Shown here: positions 1,194-28,271 of the stretch, in pieces
Layout of the letters: each line of letters opens with the position of its first letter
Position numbering within the stretch: position 1 is the stretch's first letter
Origin: Ligula intestinalis
Taxonomy: Eukaryota > Platyhelminthes > Cestoda > Diphyllobothriidea > Diphyllobothriidae
Assembly (NCBI GenBank): GCA_036362985.1
Contig: JAYGXS010000007.1
Span: 9,542,587 to 9,606,586 of the forward strand
Direction of reading: 5' to 3'
Length of the DNA: 64,000 bases
Notes under the pieces: generated by a model
What the model saw: the letters and a program-made list of their open reading frames with translations, nothing else
The model's database searches: none
Told to the model about the DNA's origin: nothing
Translations under genes and position numbers: made by a program

Positions 1194-1209
1194 AGTCAGA
1201 CGTGCACTT

Positions 1210-7369: not shown

Positions 7370-8130
7370 TAGCCACTTCTTCCCTCACTATAATGAGGAT
7401 TGCTCACTATAAAGAATCCAACGCGCTTGAATCTATCGCAGTGCGCTAAAAGCCGTGGCTTGCAGGGTTGCCAACTGGTGGATTAACTCGGACGCCGCAG
7501 TCGGTCCAGTGTGTCTTTTTGTGTGTTGTGGCTATCGCAGGAAGTTGAGTAAGTTAAACCCAAGCAACTGCGATCTTCAGACCATGGTTACTTAGTAGAG
7601 AAGAAGCCTTGGGAAAGGCCAGAATAGTAGGAACAGTATATTGCGTACACATAGGAACAAAGAATAGATACGAAGATTTGACTTGGAGAGCAAACATCCG
7701 ACCAGGAGGGCCCGTTGAGTCCAATTGCTGGTTTGACAGCAGTCAGGCCAGTAGACAGAGAGAAAGACCGTTATTTGGCTGGGTCAGGCTGTGATTGGTT
7801 GGGCAGCGTGTGGGTAGAAATCGACGTGCGCGACCATGTCTCGCACGCCAGTAAGCCTGGCGGCCGCCAGGACCCTGAGGTCTAGACGGACTGAGGTCAC
7901 GACAGGAAGGCCAGGCGTCGGGCAGGCAGCGACCACTACATGGCTGTCAACGGGCTGAGATTCAAATTCAATGGCTCCTAGTTAATGTGGCCTTTATTAC
8001 GCTCCTTATCGAGAGCATACCTAGCGAGGCGTGCTACGCATGTTAAGTGTTTGTTGCGCCAGCCATCTGCACCCTCCTGCATTATTTTTCCAGCCGTCTT
8101 GACTCTGTCTTGACAACCGGAATTAGGTGC
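7370..8130 (+). repeat. Repeat D, copy 1 (interrupted by an A element)
   Basis: Two blocks, 7370-7470 and 7960-8130, match 9262-9345 and 9437-9605 (copy 2) in the same order. Shared landmarks include CTTCCCTCACTATAAT, GCGCTAAAA.CCGTGGCTTG, AATGTGGCCTTTAT and GAGCATACCTAGCGAG. In copy 1 the two blocks are separated by a 409-bp A element, which is absent from copy 2. No coding potential was seen. Confidence 0.7.
7532..7940 (-). mobile_element. Family A element, copy A1 (TSD TGG)
   Basis: A complete copy in minus orientation, from CTATCGCAG at 7532 to CCACTACA at 7940. It is flanked by TGG at 7529-7531 and TGG at 7941-7943. The 3' terminal hairpin (on the minus strand) is formed by GATCGCAG pairing with CTGCGATAG. 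The 5' module is of the TGTAGTGGTCGCTGCCTGCC type. It sits inside repeat D, and the second D copy supplies an empty site. It has no open frame of interest. Confidence 0.85.
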
Positions 8131-8639
8131 GGTTGTGGTCAGAGAGTGGGGTAGACCCGGCCAGTTTGCTTTCACTTTACTTTCGCCAACGTCACCACGT
8201 GCTCCAACTCGTTGAAGCCCGTAGTGGATTTCGTCGAACACGACGGTTGAACTATCATGTGTGTGAGAGATGGAGAGGCATGGACAGTTTCTGCTGTCAG
8301 CGTCACGGCCATGCACGGCCCAGTGGCACGCAATAATCCAAAGTACGGCAGAGCCCGGCTGGCAGTAAGCGGTTAATCAACGCCGGAGACTAAATTTAAA
8401 CTAACTGGGATTTCTCACGCTGTTTCGTGAGCTGCCACTATTAAGTATGGGTTACAGCCTTATCACCGATGGTACTCCCTATCAATAATAACACGTAATA
8501 TCTCTCAGACAGCTTTAGCCTTGTAAATTGTGCTTCCCTTTCCTCTGAAGTACTGCTAATCTCTCTGTCATTAGTATTTTAACGCTACTAGCCGAAACCA
8601 TAGTCACTGCAGTCGCATCAAGCACTCCACGACAATCCT

Positions 8640-8890
8640 TTGTTGAAAGGTAAGCTGTATTCTTGTTACTGTTCTCGTTCTCGTTCTTTGCCGTTCCCTC
8701 ACTGTTCTCCTGTGTTCGTTTCGTTCCCCCTCACCCTCTGTTCTCATTTCCTTTCGCTCCTTCTCCTCTTTCTCTTTTTCCCCTCATCTATGTCTATCTT
8801 TATTTACCTTTCTCGGATTTCCTTCGTTCCTTGCACCCTCCCTCTCCCCCCTTTTCTTCTAGTTCTTCTTCTTCTTCTCCTTCGGTCCAC
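8640..8890 (+). repeat. Pyrimidine-rich low-complexity tract
   Basis: About 250 bases are almost entirely C and T with CTTCTT and TTCTCC repeats, most regular at 8858-8882. The long frames here come from the absence of purines rather than from coding selection. The flanking 8130-8640 and 8900-9260 show no recognisable gene. Confidence 0.55.
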
Positions 8891-9261
8891 CCACAATTAC
8901 AAGATTCAAAAGCCTGTTGCCTCTCTACTTTTAGCCCCGGCAACGGACGCCAACCGACAACAGAGCATGGGTGGTGTCTCTCAGTCGATGATTGAATGGT
9001 TACCCCCCTCAGGAGGGTGTTGGCCCAGGCTTCATGCAGGGCTGCTCTCACCCTTCTTAGATACAATAGTCTGTATGCACATGCAATGCCAGTCTTCAGC
9101 CAACCACGGTCCCTGCGGCCTGGAAGGCGCTGGCAGTTTCTCTCACTTCTGATTCCCTGTTGGTGACTGCGCTCGCGCTCCCACTGGGTTTCAGGCCCCA
9201 CTGCGGGTGCCCGAGAAGCTAGGCGGTCACTATGCGGTGGGGCAGAGAGTGAGGTCGACCT

Positions 9262-9605
9262 CGGCTTGCTTCTTCCCTCACTATAATAAATCTGAATGCG
9301 TTTGAGTCTATCACGGTGCGCTAAAATCCGTGGCTTGGAGGGTCTTCCCACTGACGGGAAAATTCAGGCCCCCTACGTAGCTGCTCCCTCTGTACGCGAG
9401 TGTCTGTGTGTGCGTACGGGATGAGAGGGAGGACTGAGGGTCAGGCTGCAATGGCTCCCTCTTAATGTGGCCTTTATGGCGCTCCCGCGCAGTCGGGAGC
9501 ATACCTAGCGAGATGGCTGTGTCAAGTGTGTGCGTGCTGAGTGTTTATCGCGCCAGCCATCTACACCTCTCTCATCCCCGGTCTTATTGACTTTGTCTTT
9601 ACACT
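9262..9605 (+). repeat. Repeat D, copy 2 (uninterrupted)
   Basis: This matches copy 1 at 7370-7470 and 7960-8130 but lacks the inserted A element. Between the two matched blocks (9346-9436) it keeps about 90 bp of local sequence, including GTGTCTGTGTGTGCGTACGG, which aligns loosely with the copy 1 flanks. From 9610 to 10006 I see nothing I can assign. Confidence 0.65.
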
Positions 9606-10009
9606 GGAAACGGAGGTGGAAGTGGCGAGCGAGCGAGCGGGCAGATTCTCCGCAAGTCTGTTTTAACTCCTGATATCTTTCGCGGTAGTTCGATGCGTTT
9701 TTTCTGCCTGCTGTTGCCTTAGTGTTGCTTGCCTCAGCGTTTACTGTGGCTTGGTGGAGCGCGTGGTGCCCATCGTCGAAACCGACAGGGAAACTTTGTG
9801 TGTGATTTGAAACCTGTCCCAGTCAGCCTTGACGCTGATTGGCCCTGACTGGCTGGAAAACAGAATGCACAGAGGCCTGGCATGGCGTTGCAACCGGCGC
9901 TCCACTACAGGGTCGCATTGGCCTCAGACGTCAGAGGCTACAACACCCAATCCCAACGATCTCAGCGATAAACTCTATGAATATCTTAATTCTTACCTTA
10001 GGACTGAAT

Positions 10010-10672
10010 TGTAGGCAGACAATCTCCTTGTCCTTGATGATTTCAGAATCAGAACAGGCACAGAACACGCCAAATGGAAAGTTTCAAGACGACCAAACAC
10101 GCGTGGCATCACTCGAGCCGTCCTGAGGGCACGAGAACAAGCGAAACAACAGGCCAGTTCGGTGCATGCAGAACGGGCCAAGACGCGTGACCTTCAATGG
10201 CGGGAACCATGCGAGGATGCGAAGGCGTTACGCGCATGCGAGACCGCTGTCATGCTGAGGTCACGCCTGGCCAGAGGCAAAGTGCGTGCGCCAAGTGTCA
10301 CGCTGAGGACACGATGGTTGTTCGCATGGGCAAATAGGGAACAAACAGGGCTGGCCCTTAAATACGACACCACGAACAGGAGACGCACTCTGTTGCCGAG
10401 ACGCGCTACCGACGACTCGAGATTCTGCTGCTAGACACACAGGACTCTATTGCCCTAGACGAGAGACTGCTTCCTATGTGAGACCGACGACAGAACACAC
10501 GCTGCTGACGAACACGGAAGACCAAGCTTCCGCACACGCAGAAGATAGAGCGTATGTACAAGCAGAAATAGTGACTTTAAACTATTTCTGCTTTCCTGTT
10601 CTGCCTTCTTTTCCTAACACGCAAATGGTGGATATAACCAGTGTTGACACAGGAACTTACAGTTTATAATAG
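10010..10672 (+). mobile_element. Family B element, copy B1 (TSD AAT)
   Basis: A 663-bp non-coding repeat from TGTAGGCAG at 10010 to TTTATAATAG at 10672, flanked by AAT at 10007-10009 and 10673-10675. Its 3' half contains a perfect 12-bp hairpin (10561-10572 with 10581-10592) and a conserved GATATAACCAGTGTTGACAC block close to the end. A TATA-like CTTAAATACG lies near 10360 and recurs in copy B2. Both ends (TGTAG... and ...ATAG) and the 3-bp duplication resemble family A, but the interior is different. Confidence 0.7.
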
Positions 10673-10965
10673 AATGGTCCGCAGCAAGCTTCAACAAGGC
10701 TAACTCAACTTCTCTTACTGAACCGCATTAAGGTTCGTCTCAGCAGAGATGCTGACTATAACAATACTTAGCTTGTCAAAAAGTGAGAAGAGTCGACAAA
10801 TTCTAATTCCCGAGTCAAAAGCCAGGGAAGATAGATTATGTTAGACAGACTTTGTTGGGGCTAGGCGGGGCAGGAAGTTCAGTGAGCAACTGCCGCAGCC
10901 TACCTCTCCCGGCGTCTGTCCGTCGTTATGATTATCGAGCCCCACCACGACAGGTGTGCGCGTAC

Positions 10966-11440
10966 GTTTATCAACAGATGTTAAAGTTATTAATGTTAAT
11001 CTTAACGGCTGCGATCTTCCAGGTCCGCTTCCTTATGAGATGAGAGGAAAGTCTTGGGAAGGCCGGATTAGTAGGAATAGTGTATTCTGTACAGACGGAA
11101 AGGAGAATAGTAAGGACGAAGTCTTGACTGCCGGAGTGCACGTCTAGCCGCAAGGCGAGCTGGGTCCGGAGTGAACTCTGAGAGCAGACATTTGAGCGGC
11201 CACCGTTGGCTGCAACCTTGCAGGTCATTGGTTGGACAGCGCGAGGGTGGGGGCGCGTTAGTAGGTCGCGTGTCTGGCGACAGCGACGGCCTTGAGGTCT
11301 GTCCAGACGGATTGAGGTCACGCCGCTATGGGTTGAGGCCAGAATGGGGAGACACGGTGCGGGCGTTCACTACCACTGAAGGTTGCGCGTCAGGTTGCCT
11401 GGCCTGAAGTACTTCATAAACAGCAGTAGGGCGCGGGGAG
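10966..11440 (-). mobile_element. Family A element, copy A2 (boundary uncertain)
   Basis: A minus-oriented copy. The hairpin end lies at 10968-11025 (TTATCAACAGATGTTAAAG ... GGCTGCGATCTTCCAGG), followed by the conserved core GGAAGGCCGGATTAGTAGG. The 5' side shares TTGAGGTCTGTCCAGACGG with copy A7 at 17252. The outer 5' end could not be placed, so no TSD is called. The stretch 11450-12060 shows no gene. Confidence 0.55.
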
Positions 11441-12065
11441 TCAACGATCAGGGGTTTTAACAGTGGCGCTAACGCCCACCACAGGTTTGCTCTGTATGAA
11501 CCGTAATCGCCTGCAGCCAATCAGAAAAAGAGAGCGCTGATAGGTTGCGAGGTCGGGGTCACCAATTATTGCGAGCTACAGTAGTCGCCGGTTACTAAGC
11601 CCCCTCGGGCCCAGATCAAATTGGGCTTAATAAGCTGCGGGCACACTAACCAGAGAGTTTTAGTTCTTCATTAGCAAGCGCAGGATAGGCACTATACATT
11701 ACGTACTGTATTATGTGTAGAGCTTGGTTATGTACAGGAAAAGAAGACTGTCTGTATTGTACGTAATAAAAAAGCAAAAAAATGATTTGCGACACGTTTA
11801 AAGAAGCGTTCTAGTGTCAGTTGTTTCGGAGGAAACTTCACTCGCAAGTGCTCTTTGATGTCCTTCTCCAGGCACCAGAAATCGTCGAATTTTGTGAAAT
11901 CTGATGAGAATCTCACTCTATCCTGTTGGCAAACTGGGCTTTGTAGCCAGCGACTGGGCTTATTAGCCGGCGGATTTTGCTATGTAAAATTCCGTCCCAA
12001 GCTGATTTGGGCTTAATACGCGGCTGGGCCTATAAGCCGTGGGCTTAATAACGGGCGACTACTGT

Positions 12066-13320
12066 AGTTGCTATCTCAACACCAGAAGGATCCCCAAATA
12101 ACAAGTCTGGGAAGACTGATTCAACTCGAACAACTTTCCTGCTAAAAAGCTGTACAGTGGTGCCGCGTGCTGCCGGCATTGCAGGTGCAAAAGTATGGAT
12201 GTGACAAGTTTAGGCTGTACAATGAACAATCAATCGGCTGGCGCTAATCAAATAAGGCAGGATTATCGATTAGCTGCAAGCATAAACGCAGTGAGTTGAC
12301 ATCAAGCGTGCAAAAGGGGCAATAGCGTGCAGCGAGCGAGGCTCAGCGCCCGAAAGGCAGCATGAGTCAGCGCAATGGCTCTTGGTGACGGATTCCTACA
12401 CCCTCGCCACGCTAGAGCCCAGTCGCACAGGGCTTGGGTGGCAGGCAGAAAAGCCGAACAGGCGATCGTTGGCGCGGAATGCTGCAGACTCAGCTCTAAC
12501 CGTTACAACCTTTAGGTCAGATTCCTTGTGAGAAAAGAAGTGGGACGCCAGACGGGAGTTATAGTATATATGCATAGAGCTAGTGGAGAATAGATTGGAG
12601 GAAGTTGGCAGCCGCACGAACGTACTTCCACAGCCGTGAGGGCCGACGTCCGAAGTGTCAAAGCACGGGAGCCGTTCAGCACCTTCGGCGAGGTCATGCG
12701 TGGGTCAACCTCAGGTAGATGATTGGCCAGACTAGACGGGTGTCAACCCACAAGTGCGTAGGTGCTGACAGCCACGACAGGGGGTGAGCGCAGCACTCGT
12801 AGTTGGGCTACTAAAACCTAGCACATCGCGATGAACTCAAGATCGTGAAATTTTGTATGGCGAGGAATGTGCAAGAGGACCGCCTGTTGTGACTAGCTCG
12901 AGTCGAAGGGAACTTTCCCGAAGGATTGTGGCGGCCGGCATTCGATATTGCTGCGCGTATTCACATCCTTCTCATAATCCAAACCTCTGTCTAGCTGCGC
13001 GCCCAGCGCTGACTCATCCTCTTACCTCTGCGTGCTCTTGTACTTTCGTGCGCCCCCGCTGTCGACGTGCCCACTCCCGGAGCTAATCGCTTCCTCGCGA
13101 GCTCTGACGCCAACACATGCACCCTTTCCTGATTGGCTGATAACTGGACAAGGTTTCGCTAAGCCCGCGGACATAGACACTTTTACACCGACTCGACTGG
13201 TTTCTGTACGCGATGACTGCAGCAGCTACTGTAAAGGCTCTTGAGCAGTAAAGTTATCCGAATTTATTCAGTCTTCCCAGACTTTTCATTTAGGGATCCT
13301 TCTGGTGTCGAGACAGAAAC
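12066..13320. repeat. Inverted repeat arms 12066-12190 and 13195-13320
   Basis: The arms are inverted copies. CACCAGAAGGATCC at 12081 is answered by GGATCCTTCTGGTG at 13295. The similarity continues through AGTCTGGGAAGACTGA and, less well, through TTTCCTGCTAAAAAGC at about 12135-12150. The spacer is about 1 kb and contains the start of an A element (12885). It could be a foldback element or two opposite insertions of an unknown repeat. Confidence 0.6.
12490..12800 (-). mobile_element. Family A-like fragment, copy A3
   Basis: A minus-oriented fragment sharing AAGTGGGACGCCAGACGGGA with the copy at 26335 (AAGTGGGACACCGGACGGGA). This marks a subfamily with an altered core. The terminal hairpin is degraded (CTCTAACCGTTACAACC region) and no TSD could be read. 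Confidence 0.4.
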
Positions 13321-13714
13321 TATCCCTCGATAGAATCACAGACGTTAGTCTCCATGCCTGGATCAGCCAGTCACCGTATCCGCAAAACCTGCCTTCTGGA
13401 CGGTGACGCAAGGCATACTTCTACGCGCTCCTGACGCCATCTATCTGCCCGGCCCAAAACCTCAAGGCCGACTCAGCCAATGAACCCTCCCTCTCTGTCT
13501 ACCGACCTGACTGCTGTAAAACTAGCACTTGGACTCGTCTGGCTTTCCTGGCTGGATGTACACTCTCCAAGTCAAATATTTTTCCATCTATTCTTCGTTC
13601 CTCTGTGTACACAATATACTGTTCCTACTACTCTGGTCATCCCTAGACTTCTCGTCTCTAGTAAGTAATCATGGTCTGAGGATCGCAGTTGCTTGGGTTT
13701 AAATCACTGCGATG
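12885..13714 (+). mobile_element. Family A element, copy A4 (TSD CGCC), with extra internal sequence
   Basis: It starts TGTTGTGACTAGCTCG at 12885 and ends at the terminal hairpin CGCAGTTGCTTGGG ... CACTGCGATG at 13714. CGCC flanks it at 12881-12884 and 13715-13718. At 830 bp it is about twice the usual length. One arm of an inverted repeat (13195-13320) lies in its middle, which explains part of the excess. The shared core TCTGTGTACACAATATACTG is at about 13600. The 5' module is the TGTTGTGAC type, shared with A8 and A13. Confidence 0.7.
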
Positions 13715-13914
13715 CGCCCTCCTTTTCCTTACCTATGCACCAGTCCATAAAGTCAACTTTTATCTTGTCCTGTTCGTCGGAAAATGTGAGCTAACTGCCA
13801 CAATCAGTTCACAATTGCCATTTGGGGGTTGCACCACCTACAAAATCGAGGATACGGTGTCCTTGTGGTTGACAGCCAGTAATGCTGTCCGACTTCCTTG
13901 TCCAATGCCCGCCG

Positions 13915-15715
13915 CCTCAACGTCATGCAGCTTCCCACGCGCGCATGTACGTACGTGTTCAGATATCCGCGGCTACCAAAGGGCCACTTGAGCACACCAC
14001 CCCTTAGCCGATGCGTAAGGAACCAGGATACACGACACCCCCTCGGGCAATGCAACACACCAATCGCACACCACTTGAACTTGCTAGACAGTAATATGAA
14101 AGCAATTGGTAGGATTGTGTCGTGGGGTCGTCTGGGGAAAGTGTGAAGCGGGCCCCGCATGCATACGAACGAGTGATTTTCGGGGAGAGAACGGGCGGGG
14201 CATACCAGGGAAGAAATAAGAACCCAATTTGAATGCCCAATAAAAGCGTTACGATGGCAAGTTGAGGCACGTACTCAAACCTTGGGAGAAGACACTGAAA
14301 GTAGCTTTAATATCATCGCTAACCCCCCACCAGACCAACGGCGAACGCGTGCATGTAGGGGGTGTGCCCAAACCTCGGGCGAGGTCACTGAGAGACATTT
14401 TCCAGTGGTATTACCAAAACCAACTAGAAAAAAGCTTAACAAAGTACAAAAGGCAAGGAGATTAGGCGAACCACCCTACTTAAAATTTCTAAGTAAGCGG
14501 TAGTTCCCGTGGGTGGTTCAAAAGTCCAATTTTGCTTAGTTTGCCGATTTTAGCAGTTATGGAATGTGTTTACCTTCGGAGAACCGTTTTGCATTCTAAT
14601 GCCATCAGAAAATCCCTGCTTGATCGATGGATGGCGCGTACAAAACCAGAATTGTACAGGTTATTCAACCTACTTAAAAAATTAAGTAGGTAGCTATAAT
14701 ACATAAGGACACAAAAAAGACCGCTAGAGACAACCTCACCAAGCAATTGCCACCATTTTCTCACAAACGCATACTTTTGGAAACCACTGGACGTAGTCAA
14801 AACTAACACTGGCTTCGCCAACGGTCACTGCTACCTGAGACAACAACAGAGGGTTCTACGCCCAATAAATCTCTCCCACTTGACCTTTAGGCATTTGGCC
14901 TGATGATTGCATTGCACTAAGCACGACTACAGATGCCACTTGGAGTCCATGATCAGCCACACGCTGACTCATCAAGCCTCTGTCACCAGGCGCAAACGGA
15001 TGCACCTTACCTTCCCATCCTGGCCTTAATCCACAGTAGCTCGACTTCAATGCGTCCAATGAGGTTGCCGCGTTAGGAGACTAGCCTCATTTAGTATTTT
15101 GGGCTCAATCTGTCTGGACAGAGGCCTTAGTGCGGTGTATGTCCCCAGACGTGACGTCGGGCCTAGCCCGTCTCACGGCTGGACGTGCGCTCTGACAGTC
15201 AAATCTCCTACTTCCTATTCTTCAACCCCTCTGTACACAATATACTATTCCTACCAATCTGGCCTTCCCATGACATATCTCTTTCCCTAAGGAGCCGGGC
15301 TTAGAAGATCGTAGCCGTTAAGGTCAACCTTATTAACCTACACAGATCTTGATATAGCCATAACTTAGCTGCTACAACCCCTTTAGGGTTTCTCGTCCAC
15401 CCAAAAGGATCGGAAAACGCAAAGAAACGGAGAAATCGCTGTGGATCGCCAACGCACCCAAATTCGACCTTTTTCGTCCTTGCCTATCCCTCATGCACAC
15501 CTACATCTGACACCACCGTGGTTTAATTATTGTGGGTACATTTGCTATCAAGCGATGCGGTCGGGTAGTAGCCGTAAAGGTTGTGCATGAAATTGCTGGA
15601 ATTATAATTTCGCACGCCTCTCTTGATGCCAAGCTTTCTCTGTCCAACGCAGAGAAAGTCACATGAAGAGGCCGATTGTAAACATTAAAACTGCACGTTA
15701 TGCAACTTCACAGGC
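13915..15715 (+). repeat. Repeat F, copy 1 (split by an A element)
   Basis: Segments 13920-14130, 14738-14925 and 15363-15715 match the second copy (15750-16845) in order. Shared landmarks include GGCTACCAAAGGGCC, CCCCTCGGGCAATGCAACAC, CTCTCCCACTTGACC, GAGAAATCGCTG and GTGAAGAGG-like ends. Between 14140 and 14730 this copy has extra sequence with two short palindromes: 14470-14520 (GAACCACCC/GGGTGGTTC) and 14668-14692 (ACCTACTTA/TAAGTAGGT). I cannot assign a class. Confidence 0.6.
14925..15362 (+). mobile_element. Family A element, copy A5 (inside repeat F copy 1)
   Basis: It begins near TGCCACTTGGAGTCC (14935), which matches the GCAGCCACTTGGAACCC 5' module, and ends with GATCGTAGCCGTTAAGG ... 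TTGATATAG at about 15362. The second F copy runs across this position without it. The extreme 5' end is degraded, so a TSD could not be read with confidence. The core TCTGTACACAATATACTATT is present. Confidence 0.65.
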
Positions 15716-15749
15716 AGCTGTTTTCGACTTGCTGACCTGAAGAACCTTG

Positions 15750-16845
15750 ACCGACTTCCACGCGCGCACACATGTGCGTCCAGGTATTTGTGGCTACCAA
15801 AGGGCCGTCTGAATACACTACCCCTCGGTCTATGTGTAGTTGTCCCTGCCTGCCCGATGCCTGGCCTTCCTGTCGTGATCTCAATCCGCCTAGACCTCAA
15901 GGTCGTGGCGGCCGCCAGACTTACTGGCGCGCGTGACGTGGACCACCTTCACGCTGTCCAACCAATCACAGGCCGACCTGGCCAAAGAACGCGCTCTTTC
16001 TACCGGCCTGACTGTTCTCAAACTGGCACTTGGAGCACGGCTGGCTCTCCTGCTGATCGTAGGCTCTCCAAGTCAAATCTCTGTCCATCTATTCTCCGTT
16101 CCCTTGTATGCACAATATACTATTTCTAGCCTTTACCGACTTCTCCTGCACTAAGTTACCATTGTCTGAAGATCGCAGTTGCTGGGTTCAACTCACTTAA
16201 CCCTCTGCGATAGATGTAACATGAACCACGATACACGAAAGCCCCTCGGGCAATGCAACACACCAATCGATCACCAAATGAGCTTGCTCCGCAATCATAT
16301 AGAAGCAGTTGCCACCACTCTCTTGCACACACTCCCGGGCACGACTGGACGCAGTCAAAACCAGCCGCGGGTTTACCAGGCCTGAAACATCCAATAGGAA
16401 TTCTGTGCACAATGAATCCCTCCCACTTGACCTTAAGTCTTTAACCACCAACCCAAATTTGACTTGATGATTGTATTGCACTCAGCCCGACCACAGCTTA
16501 TTCCCTGCAAACTCTTCAGAGGTCCTCCTCCAGCCAAACAGACCGGAGAACACAAAGAAACCGAGAAATCGCTGCGGATTGCCAACGCACCAAATCCGAC
16601 CCTTTTTCCTCCTTTCCCAAATCTCGTGCACACCTACATCCGACACCCCCGCAATGTAATTGTTGTGAGTGAATTTGCAGTCAGGAGATGGGGTCGAGTA
16701 AATGTTTTGCACGAAACAGTTGGAATTATACTTTCAAAATAAAGCATATTCTCTGGGTTGTTTTCTTGCACGCCTCTCTCGACGCACGCGGATAAGGTCA
16801 CGTGAAGAGGTCGATTATGAAGAGTAAAACTGCATGGCAGTGGCA
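15750..16845 (+). repeat. Repeat F, copy 2 (split by copy A6)
   Basis: This is the tandem neighbour of F copy 1. It begins CTTCCACGCGCGCACAC at about 15756 and, after the A6 insertion (15835-16213), continues with ATGAACCACGATACACGAAA to about 16845. Because copy 1 lacks A6 and copy 2 lacks A5, the two F copies document two separate insertions. From 16850 to 17066 I see no gene. Confidence 0.6.
15835..16213 (+). mobile_element. Family A element, copy A6 (TSD ATG)
   Basis: A complete 379-bp copy from TGTAGTTGTCCCTGCCTG to CTCTGCGATAG, flanked by ATG at 15832-15834 and 16214-16216. The first half shares the GCCTGCCCGA.GCCTGGCC module with A1, including GGCGGCCGCCAG. The second half carries the common core (TATGCACAATATACTATT) and the terminal hairpin GATCGCAGTTGCTGGG...CCCTCTGCGATAG. 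Confidence 0.85.
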
Positions 16846-17069
16846 GAAAAAGTCGGTCACCTGCACCATGGCGACATTGATCGGTTGCATGTGCTGCGTT
16901 TTAAGGAGTACACGCGTAGGTGATTACAATCGTGCTGCTGACGTAGCAGGTGTGTAGTGTCAGCTGCAGTTTACGTAGACTTGCGGGGGATCATGTGTCT
17001 CATGAGCAGACTCTGACGGCGTCTGCGTTTGGTTTGTTGTTGATTTTGATGATGATGGTCATGAGGAGG

Positions 17070-17464
17070 GTATCGCAGAGGGTTAAATAAGTTGAACCCT
17101 AGCAAATGCGATCTTCAGACAATGGTTCCTTAGGATAGTACAAGTCGGTGGAGGCCAGAATAGTAGGAATAGGTTATTCTGTATGCAGAGGAACGAAGAA
17201 TAAACAGGAAGAAGTTAAACTTTAGAGAGCACGGCGACCGCCACTGCCTTGAGGTCTGTCCAGATGGATTGAAGTCACGACACTGTTGTTTTATGCCAGA
17301 ATGGAGTAGACACGGTGCGTGCTTTTTTACGGCAGGCAATCACGTGGCTAATGTCTAGACCTTGAGATAGGCTAAGACTGGCGCGGATGTGCAGATTTGC
17401 AAACCAAAAGCGCCATGCGTCAGCGGCCGATCTTGGGTTCAAAGTGGCTGCTAAAGACCACTAC
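17070..17464 (-). mobile_element. Family A element, copy A7 (TSD AGG)
   Basis: A complete minus copy from GTATCGCAGAGGG to GACCACTACG, flanked by AGG at 17067-17069 and 17465-17467. The 5' module is the AGTGG...GCAGCCACTTTGAACCC type: a 5-bp hairpin followed by GAACCCAAGATCGGCCG on the minus strand. The interior shares ATGCCAGAATGGAGTAGACA with A2. Confidence 0.85.
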
Positions 17465-17622
17465 GAGGACTGTACTTACTATGCTGATGGGGTGGGAAGG
17501 ATAAGAAAACTACACAAAAAAACGATTGCAATAAATGAGTATAGTAAATGCGGCAAATGGTCGTTAGAGCTCGAAAATAGGGAGGTGACTTATTATGCTT
17601 ACAGAGCAATTTACGATGAAAT

Positions 17623-18270
17623 TTGTTATAACCTTGTGTGTTCCTGTGTCAACACCGCTTATGTCCCCCATTTATGTGTTAGGAAGAGAAGACAGAACAG
17701 AAAAGCAGATGGTACTTTACTGTCACTAGTTCTGCTTGCATATCAATGTTGTCTTCGGTGTGCCCGTCAGCAGCGTGTCCTCTGTCATCGGTAGCTCGTC
17801 TCGACCAACAGCAGGTCTTGCCACTAGCAGCAGAATCTCGGGTCGTCCGCAGCATGTTTCGGTAACAGAGTTCCGTGTCTCCAAGCAGCAGAATGCCCTC
17901 CTGCTCGCAGCCTCGCTAGTAAAGGGCCAGTAGTCATCGTTCCCTATTGACCCTCTACGAGTGGCCTCTACAGGCAGCCGTCATGTCTCAGCCATCGCGT
18001 CCTCCGGTGACGCTTGGCGCGCGCACTTTGCCCCCAGCTAGGCATGACCTCATGGATGGCAGATCCTGACCCGTGGTTATCCTTGCGTGCTCGCGTGTTG
18101 GCCTTTCAAGGTCACTCTCTTTGCCCGCTATGTACGCATCGGTGGCCTGTTCAATTCCCTTGTTGCACTGCCCTCAGAACAGCCCGAGTTTTGACTCACG
18201 TGTTAGGCCCTCTTAACAACATTGTTCTTTCCTCTGGGAAGAGAGGGTCAGAGGTAACCATAGTCTAGGA
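17623..18270 (-). mobile_element. Family B element, copy B3
   Basis: Minus orientation. It begins with the conserved terminus TTGTTATAACCTTGTGTG at about 17623 and follows with TCCTGTGTCAACACCG and the hairpin region GCAGATGGTACTTTACTG...AGTTCTGC. GCAGCAGAATCTCGGGTCG-like repeats follow. The distal end near 18270 was not placed. A copy of the same family lies 0.9 kb downstream in the same orientation. Confidence 0.55.
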
Positions 18271-19136: not shown

Positions 19137-19740
19137 GTCTGTTATAACCTTGTGTGTTCCGGTGTCAACACCGGTTATGTCCCCAGTTACGTGTTAGGAA
19201 GAGAAGGCAGAACAGAATAGCAGATGGTACTTTACTGTCAGTTCTACAGGTACACCAGCTCTGTTTCCTGTATGTCCAGCAACTTGTCTTCTGTGTACGT
19301 CAGCAGCTTGTGTTCTGTCATCGCCTCGGCCAATAGCGTTCCGTGTCTCTAGCAGCCGTGTCTCGGGTCGCTAGCAGCAGTGTCTCGGGTCGTCGGCAGC
19401 GTCTCCAGCAACAGAGTGCCGCCTTCAGTAGTGGCAGCATATTTAAGCGCCAGTAGTTATTGTTACCTATTGGCTCTCCATGCGTGGCCTCTACGGGCAG
19501 CCATCAAACCTCCAGCCATCGTGTCTTTAGCATGATCTTCCGATAGCCGCAACCCGGCCACGGGACAGTCTCGTTTACGCGCGTCTTCTTTGTCCACCCT
19601 CTGAAGGTCGCTTTTAAGTGCACGAACCAGTCGCCAGTAAAGTCCCTTTGTTCACTTACCCCCAGGATTGCTCTAGTGATAATTCGCGTCCGGGCCGTCC
19701 CAACAGGTTCAGTGGTACACGTTGGGGCGTACATCGAAGA
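19137..19740 (-). mobile_element. Family B element, copy B4
   Basis: Minus orientation, starting CTGTTATAACCTTGTG at 19137-19139 with GTGTCAACACCGGTTATG and AGCAGATGGTACTTTACTG. The middle has a short tandem-like GTGTCTCGGGTCG repeat at 19360-19395. ATATTTAAGCG (19440) matches the CTTAAATACG box of B1 and B2. The distal end is uncertain. Between B3 and this copy (18270-19136) I see no gene. Confidence 0.55.
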
Positions 19741-19946
19741 AGCTTGAGCAAGACCGTGCCTACGTCAACTTTGAAGTTGTATTACAAGCTTTGCGGTTGC
19801 GACTGACCGAGAACCAGACTTCCACTGATAGGCGCGAGTGGTACAGTGTTATAGCAGGTGCCTTGGGTAGCACGTCACTTTGTCTTGCGCTCAACATATT
19901 AGTAGAAAATGTGTTTACTTTTGGTGTACAATAGGAACATGAGATT

Positions 19947-20377
19947 TGTTGTGACAAGCTCGCGTCGAAGTGGACTTTTCCAAAGGCCCACGGATGCGGT
20001 TTTCGACGTCTGCGAACAGCCAATCACAGTTGTTGCATAGATGCTTTTTAGGCCGGCGACGAATAGTATGCTTGCACGCGTCCCGACGCAATCTACCTGT
20101 GTGGCCAAAAACCTTCAAGGCCGACCCAGCCAATGAACGCTCTCTCTTTCCATCCACTGGAATAACTGTTGTCAAACCAGTACTTGGACCCGCCCGGCCT
20201 CCTGGCTGGTCATATGCTCTCCAGGTCAATCGCTTTCCATCTATTATCCATTCTTTTATGTACAAAACGTACTGTTCCTAACACTCTGGTCGTTCCGAGA
20301 CTTCTTCTCTCTACTAAGTAACCATGGTCTGAAGATCGAATTTGGTTGGGTTTAACTTACTCAACCACCTGCGATAG
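19947..20377 (+). mobile_element. Family A element, copy A8 (TSD ATT)
   Basis: A complete 431-bp copy from TGTTGTGACAAGCTCGCG to CACCTGCGATAG, flanked by ATT at 19944-19946 and 20378-20380. The 5' module is the TGTTGTGAC type with GTCGAAGTGGACTTTTCC. The interior has the core TTCTTTTATGTACAAAACG and the terminal hairpin GATCGAATTTGGTTGGG ... CCACCTGCGATAG. Nothing recognisable was found at 20385-20880. Confidence 0.85.
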
Positions 20378-20881
20378 ATTTTTCGGGTTTTGAATGCGTT
20401 TCACGGCAGCTTTTGTCCTAGCCACTACGATCTGCAGGCCCTGTGCCGAAAAGAACGACGAACTGGGCGGCATTTCAGATGATAATTCATGCAGTACAGA
20501 GAGGCTGGAGGATAGGTGGAGACGAAGTGGCAGTGCGTATGAGTCACGGCACCTTGAGTGAGAGTGTCTGCATCGAGCTCGAAACTGATTGACAGGTTTG
20601 AATAGGCATGGCTGGTGAGAATCAGTAGGTCATTGGTTCGTACGAGGAGTGCAGCTTCATAACAGTAGACCCGAGTCGGGCAACCACGACCACTGCGGGG
20701 GTTCGCTAGTGTGTGCCATATTTTGGGGTCTGATTCAACCATTTGGGGAAACTCCACACAGAAAATCGCCCTCATAGCTTGGCCTTTTGATATGAGCGTA
20801 AAAGTATCGAACATCGTTTAGCTCATTTAGCCTCTCTAGGGTCACTGTGTTAGTATTTGTCCGTGTGACCATTAGCCAGAC

Positions 20882-21305
20882 CTATCGCAGGGGGTTCAAA
20901 ACGTTAAACCCTAGCAACTGCGATCTTCAGACCATGGTTCCTTGGTAGAGGAGAAGTCGATGGAGGCCAGAGTGTTAGGAACAGTATATTGTGTACACAG
21001 AGGAACGAAGAATGATAGGGACGAAAATTGACTACGGAGAGCACGACCTTCCGCTAGAAAGGCGTGATCCGGAGTGACGAGACCGTCGGAACGCCAGAAT
21101 GTCAGCGCATGCTTTGTTACGGCAGCTACTAACGCGGCTAATATCTAGAATAAGGATCGTGGTGCGACCTTGAGATGGGCGAAGGCTGGCGTGCACGGGC
21201 GGGTATGGTGAGGCCTGACCTCATGCGGCAGTGGGCGCGCAGGCCAAAGGCGCTATGCGTCAGCAGCTGGTGTTAGGTTCCAAGTGGTTGTTAGGGGCCA
21301 CTACA
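20882..21305 (-). mobile_element. Family A element, copy A9 (TSD GAC)
   Basis: A complete 424-bp minus copy from CTATCGCAGGGGG to GGGGCCACTACA, flanked by GAC at 20879-20881 and 21306-21308. The terminal hairpin is well preserved: CTGCGAT pairs with ATCGCAG, and GGGTTTAA with TTGAACCC. The 5' module carries AGTGG...CCACTTGGAACC. This is the best reference copy of the family. From 21310 to 22330 I see no gene; 21608-21636 is a short GATGATG repeat. Confidence 0.87.
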
Positions 21306-22334
21306 GACCCACCCACAAGAGCAGAATGCCGATAAAGCTTACCAACTGTTCGGTACTTAAGCACATTTTCCTGCTAAATCGATAATTCATCTATTCACGT
21401 ACCTGCATCTTCACGCTTTTTCAACCCCATTGTTTAGGGTTAAGTCAATGGGTCCTGTGTAAATGTCAGGGCTGTTAGCGCAAGCAATTCAGTAGACAGC
21501 ACCGCTCTGCTCCCCTGTGTTTACTTTTACCTTTTGACAGACGAATGAAGATGAAACCATTTTGTAGCCGACTGACCGCCCGCCAAAAAACTCTCTAATA
21601 ATAACGTCGATGATGTGGATGACGATGATGATGGACAGACCATATGTAACTGAATAATTCTCATGCTCACCTTAATTCACGAGGGGAGAAAAAAAGAGCA
21701 GCAGGTATCATTTTTGGAGGTCTACTGGAGGACGATAAACACCATGCAGCTTCGAAATTTGTACAGCAGCTAGCCAGTGACTCACAAACAATGCTGAGTG
21801 AGAAAATTGTTTAAATGAATTCAAACTAACTGCGGCAACTCGGACGGAAAAGCACGTGAGGCCTGATACCTGCGGGACCAGTTCATGCGGAAGGACTGTC
21901 CGACGACGTTTATAAGCCGATGTCTAGGTGTCCAATCCCGGAGGACTAAACCACAAACAACATATGTGTCAGGGCATGCGTTGGTATACACCAAGGATGT
22001 GTCAGAGGTGACCGAGCGCACTGATGCGGGACTAGGTATCGGAATTGCCCGTCGGCTGAAAGATCTCATGAGCAGCAGAGTCATGGAAACCAAGGACCTG
22101 TAGTGGGCGCTAGCGGCTACGGCGGGAATCCGTGATCGATGGCTCATGATGCCAAGGCTGCAGTTGCGATGACTACCCGCACCCCGTTCACGTCTCGCTC
22201 ATTGTTCGCTTGATCCAATAACACGAGAAACGCAATCTGACCAGTTACTATCAAGGCTGACTGAAAAAAAGACAGCTTTCGGTGTCCGCTCAGATTACTG
22301 CCGCTAGACCACACTACGGATTCCACCTCACTAG

Positions 22335-22687
22335 AGGGCGGTGCTGTTGACGACCCCGCGCTCTCACGGTCGGAGGCCTGCCAATCCGAGTCAAATCTCC
22401 TACTATCTATTCTTCAATCCTTCTGCAGAATAAACTCTTCCTACCAATCTGACCTTACCATGACTTCTCTCCTCTTGTAAGGAACCGGGCCTGGAAGATT
22501 GTAGCTGAGAAGAAGAAGAAGAAGAAGAAGAAGAAGAAGACTTGATCGCTGGGACAATATGTTTATTCGCCTGATGTTTCGATATCTGTCGCGGATTCAT
22601 CATCAGAGACATGAGTAGCAGAACCTTTCTGCTTCTCAAGAGTGTAGCCGCTAGGCTTAACCTTATTAACCCGTATACCCGTCGATG
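22335..22687 (+). mobile_element. Family A element, copy A10, with an insertion in its 3' hairpin
   Basis: The 3' half of an A element shares GACGACCCCGCGCTC with the copy at 24690 and contains the core CTTCTGCAGAATAAACTCTT. Its terminal hairpin is split at 22507/22643 by about 135 bp flanked by TGTAGCTG (22500-22507) and TGTAGCCG (22643-22650). The insert starts with an (AAG)n run and ends CTTCTCAAGA. The 5' end of the A copy was not placed. Confidence 0.6.
22508..22642. repeat. 135-bp insert with (AAG)n microsatellite and near 8-bp flanking duplication
   Basis: It opens with about eleven AAG units (22508-22541) and ends TTTCTGCTTCTCAAGA, so its outer ends are partly complementary. TGTAGCTG and TGTAGCCG flank it and would be an 8-bp target duplication with one mismatch. 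The interior (GATGTTTCGATATCTG, GGATTCATCATCAGAGAC) was not recognised. From 22690 to 23886 I see no gene. Confidence 0.5.
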
Positions 22688-23889
22688 GACCCATTAACTC
22701 CTAGTAAGCAGCCGGGTAAAGTGTATCGGATCCCGTGCCTAAACTGTACTAGTAATTACAAAGGGTAGACTGGACGCATGCTTGGATCGCATATACACGA
22801 GTTCAAGCTGGCTTTGAGACAGTGTGATGGATAACTGCAAGCGGCTGCCAGTAACTATGACACGGGTACCGAGTTTAACTTGGCATCCACGATGCTAATC
22901 GCGCACGCTGGAGGAAAGACAGGCTGGAAATCGATTGAAGACTGGGCCTCTTTTGAGGACACAGTCAATCGACTTATCAATCTGGCGCCAGCGTAAAGAG
23001 CCATGTGCAGTCACCTAAGAAGTGGTTTTACTGATGTTTCCTTGGTCCCTATCACCCTATAACTGTTGCTTGCTTTGTTGTGGCTTTTAGCTCTAACGGC
23101 GAGTTCTAGTAGGAACTCAAATGCTCACCTGAATAAATAAATGGTTCCAGCGAACATACACTGTTTTTCTACTTATAATGCATACACATGAAATGCAAAT
23201 GTATACCTCACTATGTTTTGGCTGTAACCAGGAAAAATGCCATCACGTAAAGTTTCATTCTCGACTTGAGAACACAATGTTTAGCAGGCTTGTAGTGACC
23301 ATGGTCCGGATGTTTAGTACAGCTCGTCATCCCTCTGTCTGAGACCCTGTTTGCTGTCCTCAGAACGTCTGCTCGCTCCTTGAAACCAATAGGCATTGTC
23401 CCGTTTTCAGACAATCACAGCTAGTAAAACAAGTCAATTAACTTCAAGACGGGCCGATAAGGTCTGAAAATAACCCAGGAAATAAAATTTGTAAATCAAT
23501 GAGTTTATAATTAAACCATTTTATTCTGCACACATAAAGGTAAGTTAACGGAAAAAAGTATATATTAGAAGACGTAAGCACACACTCTACAGTGCTCAGA
23601 TTGTGTTGATACAATGGGCATTCGGATCTGAAACAGCGCTTACGAACAGTTGGAAAAAACCCTAGAATTTGGTTGAAAAAAGGGCAAAATGCATGTGATT
23701 TTATTAGTTTTCGAGGCTAAAAAACTGTCGCTCATGGGAAGTTAAATATGTGGGTGGAATAGGACAACCCTGCAGGAGAGCGTATATAGGCGTATGATTT
23801 GTTCCTCATTAATGTAGAAATCATAAAACGAAGGAGGCTATTTACTAAAAGTGGCATCATGGTAGTTTGGGAGTAACAGTAAGAGCAAC

Positions 23890-24318
23890 TGTAGTGGCCT
23901 TTTGCAGCCACTTGGAACCCAAGATCAGCCGTTGATGCATGGCGCCTTTAGCCTGCCTGCGCGCTCACTGCCTTCTGGGGCTAGGCGCTAACTGTCCTTG
24001 ACCGACGCGCACATACGCCTCAGCGTGACCGCGTGTTCACGCTAGTCTAGATACCAGCCGCGCCATTGGCCGCCGGAACAAAGCATGCGCCGGCGACGCC
24101 TGATGCCTTCGTCACTCCGGAACCGACACGAATAGGGAACGGACGCACTAGTCCGCGATTCAACACTCTTTCCATCTATTCTCCTATCCTTCTGCAGGAT
24201 ACACTATTCATAACAAGCTGGCTTTCCCACCGTCTTCTCTCTTCACCTAAAGGAAACATGGGCGTGGAAGATCGTAGCTGTTAGGGCTAACTTTACTAGC
24301 CTTAACATTTTTCGATAT
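23890..24318 (+). mobile_element. Family A element, copy A11 (TSD AAC)
   Basis: A complete 429-bp copy. It begins TGTAGTGGCCTTTTGCAG with the 5' hairpin AGTGGC/GCCACT. Its last bases are CGATAT. It is flanked by AAC at 23887-23889 and 24319-24321. The terminal hairpin GTTAGGGCTAA...TAGCCTTAAC is strong. It is about 80% identical to A14 over the 5' half, including GGCCGCCGGAACAAAGCATG. Confidence 0.87.
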
Positions 24319-24499
24319 AACTACCAAGACGACGGAATGGGAGGCAGCAACGGTGATTGATCAAAATCGCTTAGAGATCAAGCAAGAAGGGGACATTAAA
24401 GGCTGTGATGATCATAAAACGCTGAGATGCACCTATGATAGTTGTTTGTTGACTGACCAAACTGTAGAGGTAGCTGCCATCCGACTCCTTCCTAACTGT

Positions 24500-24840
24500 T
24501 GACGCCACAGACGAGGTCACTCAGAGTATAAGACGCACACGCCGGTGCGTAACCTTGCGCGGTCCGATCAATGACCTTCAATAATGCGTTAGGCAGACAT
24601 CTAGTGGTGGCCGCTCGAATGTCTGCCCCCAGACGTCACTCTGGATTTCACCGTCCGGGTGCGGACGCAGACAGCGTCGTTGGCCGCTGTGACGACCCCA
24701 CGCTCCCACACGCCGCTCACGGCTGGACGCCATGCCAAACCGAGTGACCTTCTCAAAATGCCTGCCTTCACCTAAGGAACCTGGCCTCAAAGATCGCAGC
24801 CATTAGGGTTAACCCTTTTAGCCTCAACAGCACGCGATAA
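24500..24840 (+). mobile_element. Family A element, copy A12 (5' end uncertain)
   Basis: The 3' end is clear: GATCGCAGCCATTAGGGTT ... CACGCGATAA at 24792-24840, a good hairpin. Upstream it shares CTGTGACGACCCCACGCTC with A10. The extreme 5' end and the TSD could not be fixed. The common core around the stop-rich ACACAATATAC stretch is deleted here. Confidence 0.55.
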
Positions 24841-25659
24841 CTGGTGACTTCTCGCCGTATCCCACACTACGTGATTAAACTACCAGCAGATGGCGAGAAC
24901 AGAGGAATCTACCGTGATCGTCCACATATCGCTGGGAGGTCGATGACATTAAACGCCGCGGGAATCGCACTAGTGTGAGTAGAGGGGGGAGGAGGTGAGG
25001 GGCAAAAGCAGTGGAGTCAGTAGCCAGTTAAAACTGAATGTTACAAAAGTTTTCGTAATTGTTTCTAGTTAAGCAACTAAAGTGGGTAGTAGCAGTCCTT
25101 AAATCCCAGGAGGACTTTTTTCAACGTTAAGAAGGTGTTATGACCCGCCTGGTACTGCTAACTTGCACGAACCGATGCGCAAAGAAACCCGTAAGAGAGA
25201 CAGTGAGAAAGCCAGTCTGCCAGACAAAGAAGTCTACTCAGACAAGAGCACGGTACAGCGCGTTAATGCAAGCAAGCGCGAGTCAGTCAGGCACAGGGTA
25301 TATGCACTTTAACGGGAACGCGAATAACAGACATTATCCGACAGTGGCCAATCAGGATTGAGCCGACAAGTCTGGCTGATGGCTCTCGCGACTCCGTTGA
25401 GTGCGTTGACTCATCATGGGGCGCGCGGCGTCCCAACAGAAGGCTAGTGTTCGGAAATGAAACAGACAGTAATAACTATAAACTTTCTGAGGTAAGGCGG
25501 TTTCGTGATTCTAATTTGATTACTGATACTTTCAGCGATTTAGTACGGTCTAGGGAAAGATTATTCCAACAGAGGGCATATTTGGATCAAAAAGAGCGAG
25601 CACGTAGACACAGACCAAAGAAGCGACGGAACAAGCATGGAGGAATTACCTTTGGAGGT

Positions 25660-25987
25660 TAAATGAGTTAAATTCTAGTAACTGCGACCATGGTTCCTTA
25701 GAGGAGAAGTCCTGGGAAGGCAAGAGTATAAACAATTGTTTTTTTCTGTATACAAAGGAAGGTAGAATACGCAGGAAGAAGTAAGACTTCGGAGCGCACG
25801 ACCAGCCAGGAGGCTAGCTAAGTCCTACGTGCGGGCTTGGCCGCAGGCATCCCAGCGGTCATTGACTGGGATTCGTTGCCGGGCCAGGGGCCAGCTTTTA
25901 GGCATCTTTGATTGGCTGTTCCCAAAAATCTAGAACAGCGGTAATGAGCTTTGGCAAAGTTCACTTCGACGCAAGCTAGTCACGACA
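25660..25987 (-). mobile_element. Family A element, copy A13 (hairpin end truncated)
   Basis: A minus copy with TCTAGTAACTGCGACCATGG near 25676, the core AAGGCAAGAGTATAAACAATT, and the 5' terminus of the TGTTGTGAC type seen as GCAAGCTAGTCACGACA ending at 25987. The outer half of the terminal hairpin is missing. Just before it, 25447-25662 is a lysine/arginine-rich open frame that I do not recognise and do not call. Confidence 0.6.
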
Positions 25988-26255
25988 GAATTACGCACAG
26001 CACAAGGCTGATCAACTGGGATGAGAACAGCTCGAGTTAATACGAAACAGCAAGCAAAGGCCAGTTTCGAAGCTTCTAATCCATAAAAACGTATTGTGTG
26101 CCATTTGAAATTTCTCGGTAGAAGAAATACCGGATCCAACATAGGGGAGGAGTCTTCGCATGAAAACTTCCTGAACAGGTTCGATTTTGCTACGATCACT
26201 GGAAAAGAAGAGTCAACAATTCCCGAGAACGGGCAGAACCCACAAAGATTATGTA

Positions 26256-26391
26256 GTATCGCAGTAGCTTAACTTAATTAAGAAAACATGCTTGCCGCTG
26301 TGATCTTCAAGCCGGTTCCTTGTGGTGGGAGAAAAAGTGGGACACCGGACGGGAGTGTAGGATATGGAGTAGTCCGGCTGGATAATAGAAG
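26256..26391 (-). mobile_element. Family A fragment, copy A17, abutting A14
   Basis: The hairpin end of a minus-strand A copy (GTATCGCAGTAGC ... GCTGTGATCTTCAAGCC) plus about 70 bp of the subfamily core AAGTGGGACACCGGACGGG. It is cut off by A14, whose ATG duplication begins at 26392. A further minus-strand A-like segment follows A14 (26860-27304). Confidence 0.55.
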
Positions 26392-26394
26392 ATG

Positions 26395-26856
26395 TGTAGT
26401 GGCCTCTTTGCAGCCACTTGGAACCCAAGACCAGCCACTGATGCATGACTCATCTAGCCTGCCTGTGTGCCAACCGTCTCCTGGGGCTAAGCGCTAACTG
26501 CCCTTGGCCGACGCGCACGTACGCCACAGCGTGACCGCGCGTACACGCTAGCCAATCGCAGTCCATCTCAAGGTCGCGCGTCCACGCGAGGCTAGACATC
26601 ACCCGCCTTATTGGCCGCCGGAACAAAGCATGCGCCGGCGACGCTCGATGTTCTCAACACTCCGGAGCCCACCCGAATAAGGAACGGACGCAAAACTCCG
26701 CGAGTCAACACTATTCCCATCCTATTCTCCTTCCTGTGTACACAGTAAACTATTCCTTCTACTCTGGCCTTCCCAAGACTTCTCCAATACCCTAAGGAAC
26801 CGGGCCTCGAAGACTGTAGGTGCTAGGGTTAACCGTCTTAACCTTAACTCCTATAG
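26395..26856 (+). mobile_element. Family A element, copy A14 (TSD ATG)
   Basis: A complete 462-bp copy from TGTAGTGGCCTCTTTGCAG to CTCCTATAG, flanked by ATG at 26392-26394 and 26857-26859. The 5' hairpin is AGTGGC/GCCACT. The body includes GCATGCGCCGGCGACGC, shared with A11, and the core CTGTGTACACAGTAAACTA. It is inserted between minus-strand A-like sequences on both sides. Confidence 0.87.
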
Positions 26857-26859
26857 ATG

Positions 26860-27304
26860 AACGTATCCCAACGGTTATAAACTAGTGAATAAGATAAGGC
26901 GTGGAAGGCCAGATTGTTATGGATAATTTTTATTAAATGCAGAACGAGTAGAATGTGAGTAATAGATAAATGACTCCCAGACGAGTGCAGTCCAGCTATG
27001 AGAGGGCCGGAGTCCATACTCGCATTCCGGCGGTTGTAGTCGCCGGGTCCGGATGTCTTTAACCAACGTGAGTTCAGCGGTTCCAGAAGTGTCTGACCGT
27101 AAGCCATCCCCGCAGTAAGGTCCTTTGTGGACCGGCCTTGGAACGTAATTGGTAAGTTGAGATAGACAGAGGGTGACGTTGACCGGCGGTTGGACACCCT
27201 CTGGTGAACCTGCCTTTTCCGCCTCCAGTGTGAACTTACTGGATGCGTGTGTCTACACTTAGATGCGCCGCTGATCACGTGTTCCCACGTGGCGCTACAG
27301 GTGG
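26860..27304 (-). mobile_element. Family A-like minus-strand segment, copy A16
   Basis: Core-like sequence GGAAGGCCAGATTGTTATGG at about 26908 and a terminal GTTCCCACGTGGCGCTACA ending at 27304, which corresponds to the TGTAGTGGC 5' end read backwards. Its last 38 bases belong to the left arm of the 114-bp inverted repeat. Confidence 0.5.
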
Positions 27305-27960
27305 ACGAAAGCACATAACGTCTACACGAGGCCTCGCGTGACCACGAGTGGTTTACTCTCAGACACAGCTCTGAGTCGGCCACCCCCTCCCTCCTCTCCT
27401 AGAGCGCTCTATCAAACCCTCCCATATCCTTGCAACCAGCCTTCGCTTATCGACCCACCCCCATTCCCACTACTCACTTGTCCGAAAAGACGAACACGTT
27501 TAAACTCGCACCCAGTTTCCATATCAATGTAAGGCCTAACGAGAATTTGTCTAAAGTACACGCATACTCGCCAAACTGGACTTCTGAATTAGTTGTATAA
27601 CTTGGGCCCTAGTCCACTATTTTGCAAGGTCAAGTAAGCGTTGCAGGACCAAACACACGAAACTGTACGTGCACGAAGAAGTCTCTGTCTGTGAAGTTGA
27701 CCTCCTTGTGGATACGCATAACGAAACCGATTTAATTTTTTCAACGCAATCCTTACAGCATGAATTAACACATTTAAGATAATCGGCATAAATTAAAGTT
27801 TGTGAACTTCTGACTTCAGTCAAAATATCGTAGATGTAAAGAAGTAGCCGACTCAGAACTGTGTCTGAGAGTAAACCACTCGTGGTCACGCGAGGGCTCG
27901 TGTAGACGTTGTGTGCTCTAATCCACCTGTAGCGCCACGTGGGAACACGTGATCAGCGGC
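27267..27960. repeat. 114-bp inverted repeat pair (27267-27380 and 27847-27960)
   Basis: The two arms are reverse complements with about six differences in 114 bases. They include GATCACGTGTTCCCACGTGG and CGAGTGGTTTACTCTCAGAC. The spacer is 466 bp with no recognised gene. The outer 35-38 bases of each arm are the 5' end of an A element and the inner parts are not, so the inversion covers A plus flanking DNA. Confidence 0.85.
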
Positions 27961-28271
27961 ACTGCGTTGGCTCATCTTTTCTGCGACTACCAAGCCTTGC
28001 ATTCGTGCGTGCTTGCAATCCTGCACGGACGCTCTGGCTCGACCCGCCGTGAATGCTACCCAGGCTGTCCAATAATCACCGTGCACCATTCACTGATTGG
28101 CCGCAGGCACAAAGCATGCTCTGGGCTTCGCGGGATCCCACACGCTCACTTCACTTCAGACGCAGTCTGTTGGCCTGCGGTTGGGCGCTCGTCTGATAGC
28201 CAAATTACTCCCATCCATTCTTCAAATCCTTCTGTACAGGACAAACTACTACTTCCACCTGGCGTCCCAAC
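27928..28271 (+). mobile_element. Family A element, copy A15, left part (split by a LINE)
   Basis: It begins TGTAGCGCCACGTGGGAAC and contains ATTGGCCGCAGGCACAAAGC and CTTCTGTACAGGACAAACTA, matching A14 in order. At about 28271, where other copies continue into CTTCTC..AAGGAACC, the LINE begins. The missing 3' part (GCGAGGAACCAAGCC, hairpin, GTGATAC) is found at 32541-32615. Confidence 0.7.

Follow-up and report, generated by a model that had tools for sequence, protein, structure and literature searches.

Family A consists of non-coding mobile elements, and there is strong evidence that its units were inserted as a whole with a 3-base-pair (bp) target duplication. We analysed it in a 64,000-nucleotide stretch of Ligula intestinalis DNA (assembly GCA_036362985.1, contig JAYGXS010000007.1, positions 9,542,587 to 9,606,586 of the forward strand), hereafter the window. 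The units have constant, mutually unlike ends and no recognisable coding part, and the majority of the copies that were folded carry a hairpin at the 3' end. Family A is probably a short non-autonomous DNA transposon without terminal inverted repeats (TIRs), moved by a DDE-type enzyme that cuts with a 3-bp stagger.

Iterated nhmmer searches seeded with copy c1 gave 20 matches, which correspond to 19 loci between 7.5 and 42 kb of the window (two matches belong to c10), or to 18 if c15 and c16 are counted as one older copy. This agrees with the original prediction, made from the letters of the window alone, of a real mobile non-coding family with at least 15 copies or fragments in this interval. 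Both ends can be recognised in 12 of the 19 loci, and these two-ended copies measure 342-831 bp; one or both ends are missing in the other seven. Pairwise identities of 44-79% suggest that the copies are old. Their best-shared part is the last ~130 bp, and the 5' parts form unlike groups. The 3' region is kept in three of the incomplete loci (c2, c15 and c18) and lost in four; thus, in these small numbers, there is no clear bias towards 5' truncation.

Insertion with a 3-bp target duplication

Matching 3-mers flank all 12 two-ended copies of the window at the chosen boundaries. When the flanks were shuffled among the copies, the mean number of matches was 1.33 and the maximum was 8 in 100,000 shuffles, against the 12 observed. 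In c1, c6, c8 and c9, the exact TGT... and ...CTGCGATAG ends set both boundaries independently of the flanks. For the other eight copies the boundary was chosen with the flanks in view, and the 3' boundary of c12 lies 2 bases before the alignment column that the others share. The original prediction had listed duplications for eight copies (A1, A4, A6, A7, A8, A9, A11 and A14, which bear the same numbers here), and all of them are present: CCA in c1 (in element orientation), GCC in c4 (CGCC is readable), ATG in c6, CCT in c7, ATT in c8, GTC in c9, AAC in c11 and ATG in c14. Four more were found, namely AGC in c5, ACC in c10, AAC in c12 and TTC in c13. The duplicated 3-mers are diverse and not one fixed sequence, which indicates that the length is set by a fixed stagger and not by a fixed site. 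A TWA target was found in none of the 12 duplications. The direct repeats exceed 3 bp in 11 of the 12 copies, reaching 4-7 bp.

The copies are embedded in other repeats, which allows paralogues of their sites that lack the insertion to be found by joining the flanks. We compared the joined flanks of the 12 window copies and of one copy from elsewhere in the assembly (L002; n = 13) with the window and with a 300-kb sample of that assembly (274 kb excluding N; labels beginning with L refer to this sample). Alignments spanning the junction were obtained for five of the 13, c1 (4), c5 (1), c6 (2), c10 (3) and c14 (1), giving 11 in total. The target 3-mer is present once, ungapped, in 10 of these 11 empty-site alignments and is letter-identical in seven; the three empty sites of c10 all read ACC. 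The empty site of c5 is window 16401-16640, those of c6 are window 13935-14108 and L015, and the empty arrangement of c14 is L021 6366-6171. The joined flanks of a further sampled copy, L030, gave no empty-site alignment.

The sampled DNA contained nine matches, representing eight family A loci on contigs C1, C3 and C5, of which two are two-ended. With partial copies counted, eight loci in 274 kb amount to a density of about one per 34 kb; extrapolated from these eight loci, the five contigs touched, of 118, 101, 93, 72 and 61 Mb and together 445 Mb, would hold some thirteen thousand. Both two-ended copies start with TGT. The expectation that the 3-bp duplication and the constant ends hold outside the window was borne out exactly by L030 4529-5052, which has GTC on both sides and a direct repeat of 9 bp, whereas the other copy, L002 4383-3977, is off by one base.

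Of 48 positions around the duplication, 37 follow a purine-purine-N-pyrimidine-pyrimidine pattern picked post hoc, against a null mean of 24 (p 0.0001), a lean of the kind that a symmetric enzyme would give. Direct repeats extending past 3 bp indicate that target sites tend to be similar to the ends of the element itself. The fit of the empty sites to 3 bp leads us to read this extension as a target preference; alternatively, a reverse transcriptase may have primed on microhomology.

Unlike ends, hairpin and coding content

The 5' end reads TGT[ATC]G in 10 of the 12 two-ended window copies, the exceptions being c7 (CGT) and c5 (ACG). As originally predicted, no TIRs were detected above chance in any of the 12: when the first 15 bases were compared with the reverse complement of the last 15, p was at least 0.40 against the copy's own shuffles in each case. 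The termini are TGT... at the 5' end and, read inward, CTATCGCAG at the 3' end, with no CAC...GTG, and none of the 12 copies ends in CA.

Two types of 3' end were distinguished. Type 1 reads ATCGCAG...CTGCGATAG, and its example in c1 (7532..7578, minus strand) combines an outer stem, ATCGCAG...CTGCGAT, with an inner stem (z -2.56). In type 2 the inner stem is longer and the outer stem weaker; the example in c11 (24267..24318, plus strand) has an 11-bp inner stem, TGTTAGGGCTA/TAGCCTTAACA (z -3.08). DNA folding at the 3' end is better than that of shuffled sequences (z <= -2) in nine of 15 loci, in c5 via a different pairing; the remaining four of the 19 loci were left out as their 3' end is missing or cut. 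Outside the window, L002 reaches z -2.50, and L030 folds no better than its shuffles (z 0.09). At the 5' end, none of the 12 copies folds at z <= -2, despite AGTGG..CCACT in some. The hairpin thus belongs to many but not all family A copies, and to one of their ends only. The original prediction was overstated on two counts here, that the 3' end is always an inverted repeat and that the copies end in CTGCGATAG, a sequence that is exact in c1, c6, c8 and c9 only, has one change in c7 and has diverged in the others. As the stems shift register between copies, a single structure does not fit the alignment, and column covariation was not counted.

No Pfam domain reached its cut-off in the 20 longest of the 157 open reading frames (ORFs) of at least 60 amino acids between 7 and 29 kb; the one weak match among these 20 is to DUF512 (E 0.086, below its cut-off). 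A pair of A and B boxes of an RNA polymerase III promoter was found on neither strand of the 12 copies, Rfam gave no match at E <= 1 in 7.0-28.5 kb, and no poly-A or simple-repeat tail was seen by eye. A scan of GTDB genomes and IMG/VR for the family A pattern returned nothing, as expected for an animal genome.

Two other candidates were tried and rejected. An introner (GT..AG) was considered because type 1 ends read T followed by GT...AG, yet removal by splicing would leave four bases too many behind, and the majority of type 2 copies lack the AG end. A hammerhead-like CTGAAGA stands before the hairpin; it is absent from type 2 copies, and the Rfam search of 7.0-28.5 kb did not support it.

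Copies and neighbouring features

Copy c1 (7532..7940, minus strand, 409 bp) sits inside another repeat and has four empty paralogous sites. This host repeat belongs to a non-coding repeat family seen at window 7400-8255 and 9277-9567, L027 126-567 and 1522-1785, and L010 7295-7447; it has CTATCGCAG at window 7433, the 9-mer of the family A 3' end read inward, which may be due to chance. Copies c4 (12885..13715, plus, 831 bp) and c8 (19947..20377, plus, 431 bp) share the 5' type TGTTGTGAC. Copy c5 (14923..15355, plus, 433 bp) has a diverged 5' end; it and c6 (15835..16213, plus, 379 bp) each break one copy of a repeat present in two copies (window 13935-14108, 14741-15700 and 16223-16735). Copies c7, which starts with CGT, and c9 lie on the minus strand (17070..17465, 396 bp, and 20882..21305, 424 bp). 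Copy c10 (22099..22688, plus, 590 bp, with three empty sites) includes a (GAA)n-bearing stretch of ~127 bp that separates its two nhmmer matches; this stretch (window 22508-22634) interrupts the hairpin region, leaving part of a hairpin arm on each side. Both c11 (23890..24318, plus, 429 bp) and c12 (24463..24838, plus, 376 bp) have 3' ends of type 2, and c13 (25646..25987, minus, 342 bp) has the 5' type TGTCGTGAC and a decayed hairpin. Finally, c14 (26395..26856, plus, 462 bp) lies between c15 (26256..26391, minus), the 3' part of an older relative, and c16 (26889..27057, minus), part of an older relative; because their model ranges overlap, these two may not derive from a single simple copy. 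The other incomplete loci are c2 (10968..11260, minus), a 3' part whose 5' end was not recognised, c3 (12490..12746, minus), whose 3' end is cut, and the partial copies c19 (20411..20534, minus), c17 (28051..28269, plus) and c18 (41727..41996, minus).

The window contains further repeats. A dispersed non-coding one occurs at 10086-10669, 17626-18214, 19140-19525 and 35135-35344. A 280-bp imperfect palindrome at 39534-39813, 70% identical to its own reverse complement, is possibly a foldback miniature inverted-repeat transposable element (MITE), and the arms of a 117-bp inverted repeat (27267-27383 and 27844-27960) are 94% identical, far more alike than family A copies. Among the ORFs, 29305-30363 encodes a long interspersed element (LINE) endonuclease whose best named matches come from Spirometra, Sparganum, Schistocephalus and Dibothriocephalus, and the product of 47760-48377 has 89% full-length identity with an RRM-domain protein of Schistocephalus solidus. 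These matches place the host among the diphyllobothriid tapeworms, probably close to S. solidus. An integrase zinc-binding domain (PF17921) at 56971-57564 (minus) is probably the remnant of a long terminal repeat (LTR) retrotransposon. The ORF at 615-1238 (minus) matches no Pfam family at E <= 0.001; by eye it resembles what we take to be the N-terminal part of a Helitron helicase. In the sample, the sequence upstream of L010 2568, beside a family A match, reads by eye like a fragment that may derive from a mariner transposase.

Possible modes of mobility

If family A is a TIR-less DNA transposon, a transposase encoded elsewhere in the genome would recognise two different ends, a 5' TGTNGTG and a 3' end able to fold as a terminal hairpin, with ~130 bp of shared sequence before the hairpin. 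After a cut in the target staggered by 3 bases, it would join the element in, and gap repair would then yield the 3-bp duplication. Such an enzyme would be of the DDE type, the hairpin and the 3' block may constitute its binding signal, and movement would proceed via DNA and not RNA.

Several known systems share some of these properties. Mutator-like elements without TIRs (VANDAL) are DDE-type transposons with non-matching ends like those of family A, but their duplications measure 8-11 bp. PIF/Harbinger elements carry TIRs and use TWA-type targets, seen in none of the 12 duplications reported here. Their duplications and those of Nuwa (PHIS) are of 3 bp, as in family A (available part of PMC12730594). 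EnSpm/CACTA and Plavaka (CMCT) elements likewise make 2-3-bp duplications, and the termini of PlavakaA begin with TGT (same source and part). However, EnSpm/CACTA and Plavaka have matching termini (CAC..GTG, TGT..ACA, CATCA..TGATG), whereas family A has TGT..TAG. Kyakuja (KDZ) elements, which are fungal DNA transposons, have no TIRs in the families described; they differ from family A by 7-bp duplications and CA..TG termini, against 3 bp and TGT..TAG, and 'hairpin' is not mentioned in the available main text (PMC12730594). As TIR-less DNA transposons are thus already published, it is more economical to see family A as a TIR-less form within a known transposase class than as the 'undescribed system' of the original prediction, which was too strong a term. 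It is rather doubtful that family A is a distinct kind of eukaryotic transposon, with a short TGTNGTG left end, a terminal-hairpin right end, a fixed 3-bp stagger, targets like its own ends (..AG, then NNN, then T..) and an enzyme from a class that has so far not been associated with ends of this sort.

A number of observations weigh against a TIR-less DDE-type transposon. Nearly all DDE elements carry TIRs, and family A has none above chance. The window showed neither an autonomous copy nor a transposase with family A ends, and no transposase was found among the 10 ORFs tested of the 76 of at least 150 amino acids in 28 sampled stretches; these ten gave matches to reverse transcriptase, LINE endonuclease, PHD, SNF2 and RING/B-box domains, or nothing. 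The repeat extension sums to 22 bases, against 11.8 with permuted flanks (p 0.0012), and c13 can be read with a 7-bp repeat (GTAATTC); a strict stagger alone does not predict longer repeats. Five of the 11 empty-site alignments have a gap in the 3-mer or at most 10 bases away, the other six being free of gaps in this range. In c14/L021 a one-base gap falls inside the 3-mer, L021 otherwise keeping the arrangement minus c14, and in c1/window, c1/L010, c6/L015 and c10/L026 6310 a gap of 1-3 bases is located 4-8 bases from it. Moreover, L002 is flanked by GTT on both sides only after a one-base shift of its 5' boundary.

Finally, a common 3' block behind different 5' heads also resembles pairs of short interspersed elements (SINEs) and LINEs, and the main rival, which is possible although clearly less likely, is a SINE-like retroposon. 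SINEs with a LINE-derived 3' tail share a hairpin tail and have variable heads. A LINE enzyme would recognise the 3' hairpin and reverse-transcribe the element RNA at the target, so that only the 3' tail must persist and the heads may differ. The 3' block shared by copies with unlike 5' parts, the restriction of the hairpin to the 3' end, the microhomology extending at the junctions and the extra base at the 5' junction of L002 all suit this mechanism; LINE ORFs occur in the window, and non-LTR elements are reported to make up ~31.5% of diphyllobothriid genomes (available part of PMC12471100). However, 3 bp fits all five copies with empty sites. LINE duplications, by comparison, are normally variable in length. 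In addition, family A differs from LINE-tailed SINEs in that its 12 two-ended copies hold no A/B box pair, no Rfam match was obtained and no repeat tail was seen by eye, and both ends are kept in 12 of the 19 loci.

An ordinary MITE of a superfamily with 3-bp duplications (CACTA/EnSpm, PIF/Harbinger, Plavaka or Zator), whose TIRs have merely decayed, appears improbable. Duplications of free sequence would suit EnSpm, the copies are old, and the 5' TGTCGTGA and the inward 3' TATCGCAG agree weakly, by eye, as purines and pyrimidines with a one-base offset. Yet each end is conserved across subfamilies and the two are unlike each other, so that decay alone is not enough, and neither CAC...GTG termini nor TWA duplications occur. 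Solo LTRs, or those of terminal-repeat retrotransposons in miniature, would account for a U3-like variable 5' half, a conserved 3' half, a TG start (10 of 12 copies) and single units with their own duplications; LTR duplications are usually of 4-6 bp, though, and the 3-bp length and the lack of any CA end make this origin very unlikely. Besides, every two-ended copy has its own duplication, and therefore no two copies flank an internal region as a pair. Rolling-circle elements of the Helitron/Helentron type (HINE) have unlike ends and a 3' hairpin as family A does, but make no target duplication, and their hallmarks are a CTRR end and a fixed A/T or T/T target. The 3-bp duplication with its empty sites contradicts such an origin, which we regard as hardly credible; the family A hairpin also extends to the very end, with no CTRR end and no fixed target. 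The original prediction of a poor fit to LTR, SINE, Helitron, CACTA and Harbinger elements thus stands.

Annotation tools for transposable elements mostly seek TIRs, LTRs or coding domains, and a non-coding family that lacks TIRs, with a locus every 34 kb or so, would tend to end up unclassified. Diphyllobothriid repeats are described mainly by their retrotransposons in the available part of PMC12471100, and, judging by title, none of the literature matches listed describes family A or a TIR-less family with 3-bp duplications in flatworms. The pairs of occupied and empty sites are a good handle for finding the transposase and for asking how one enzyme acts on two unlike ends.

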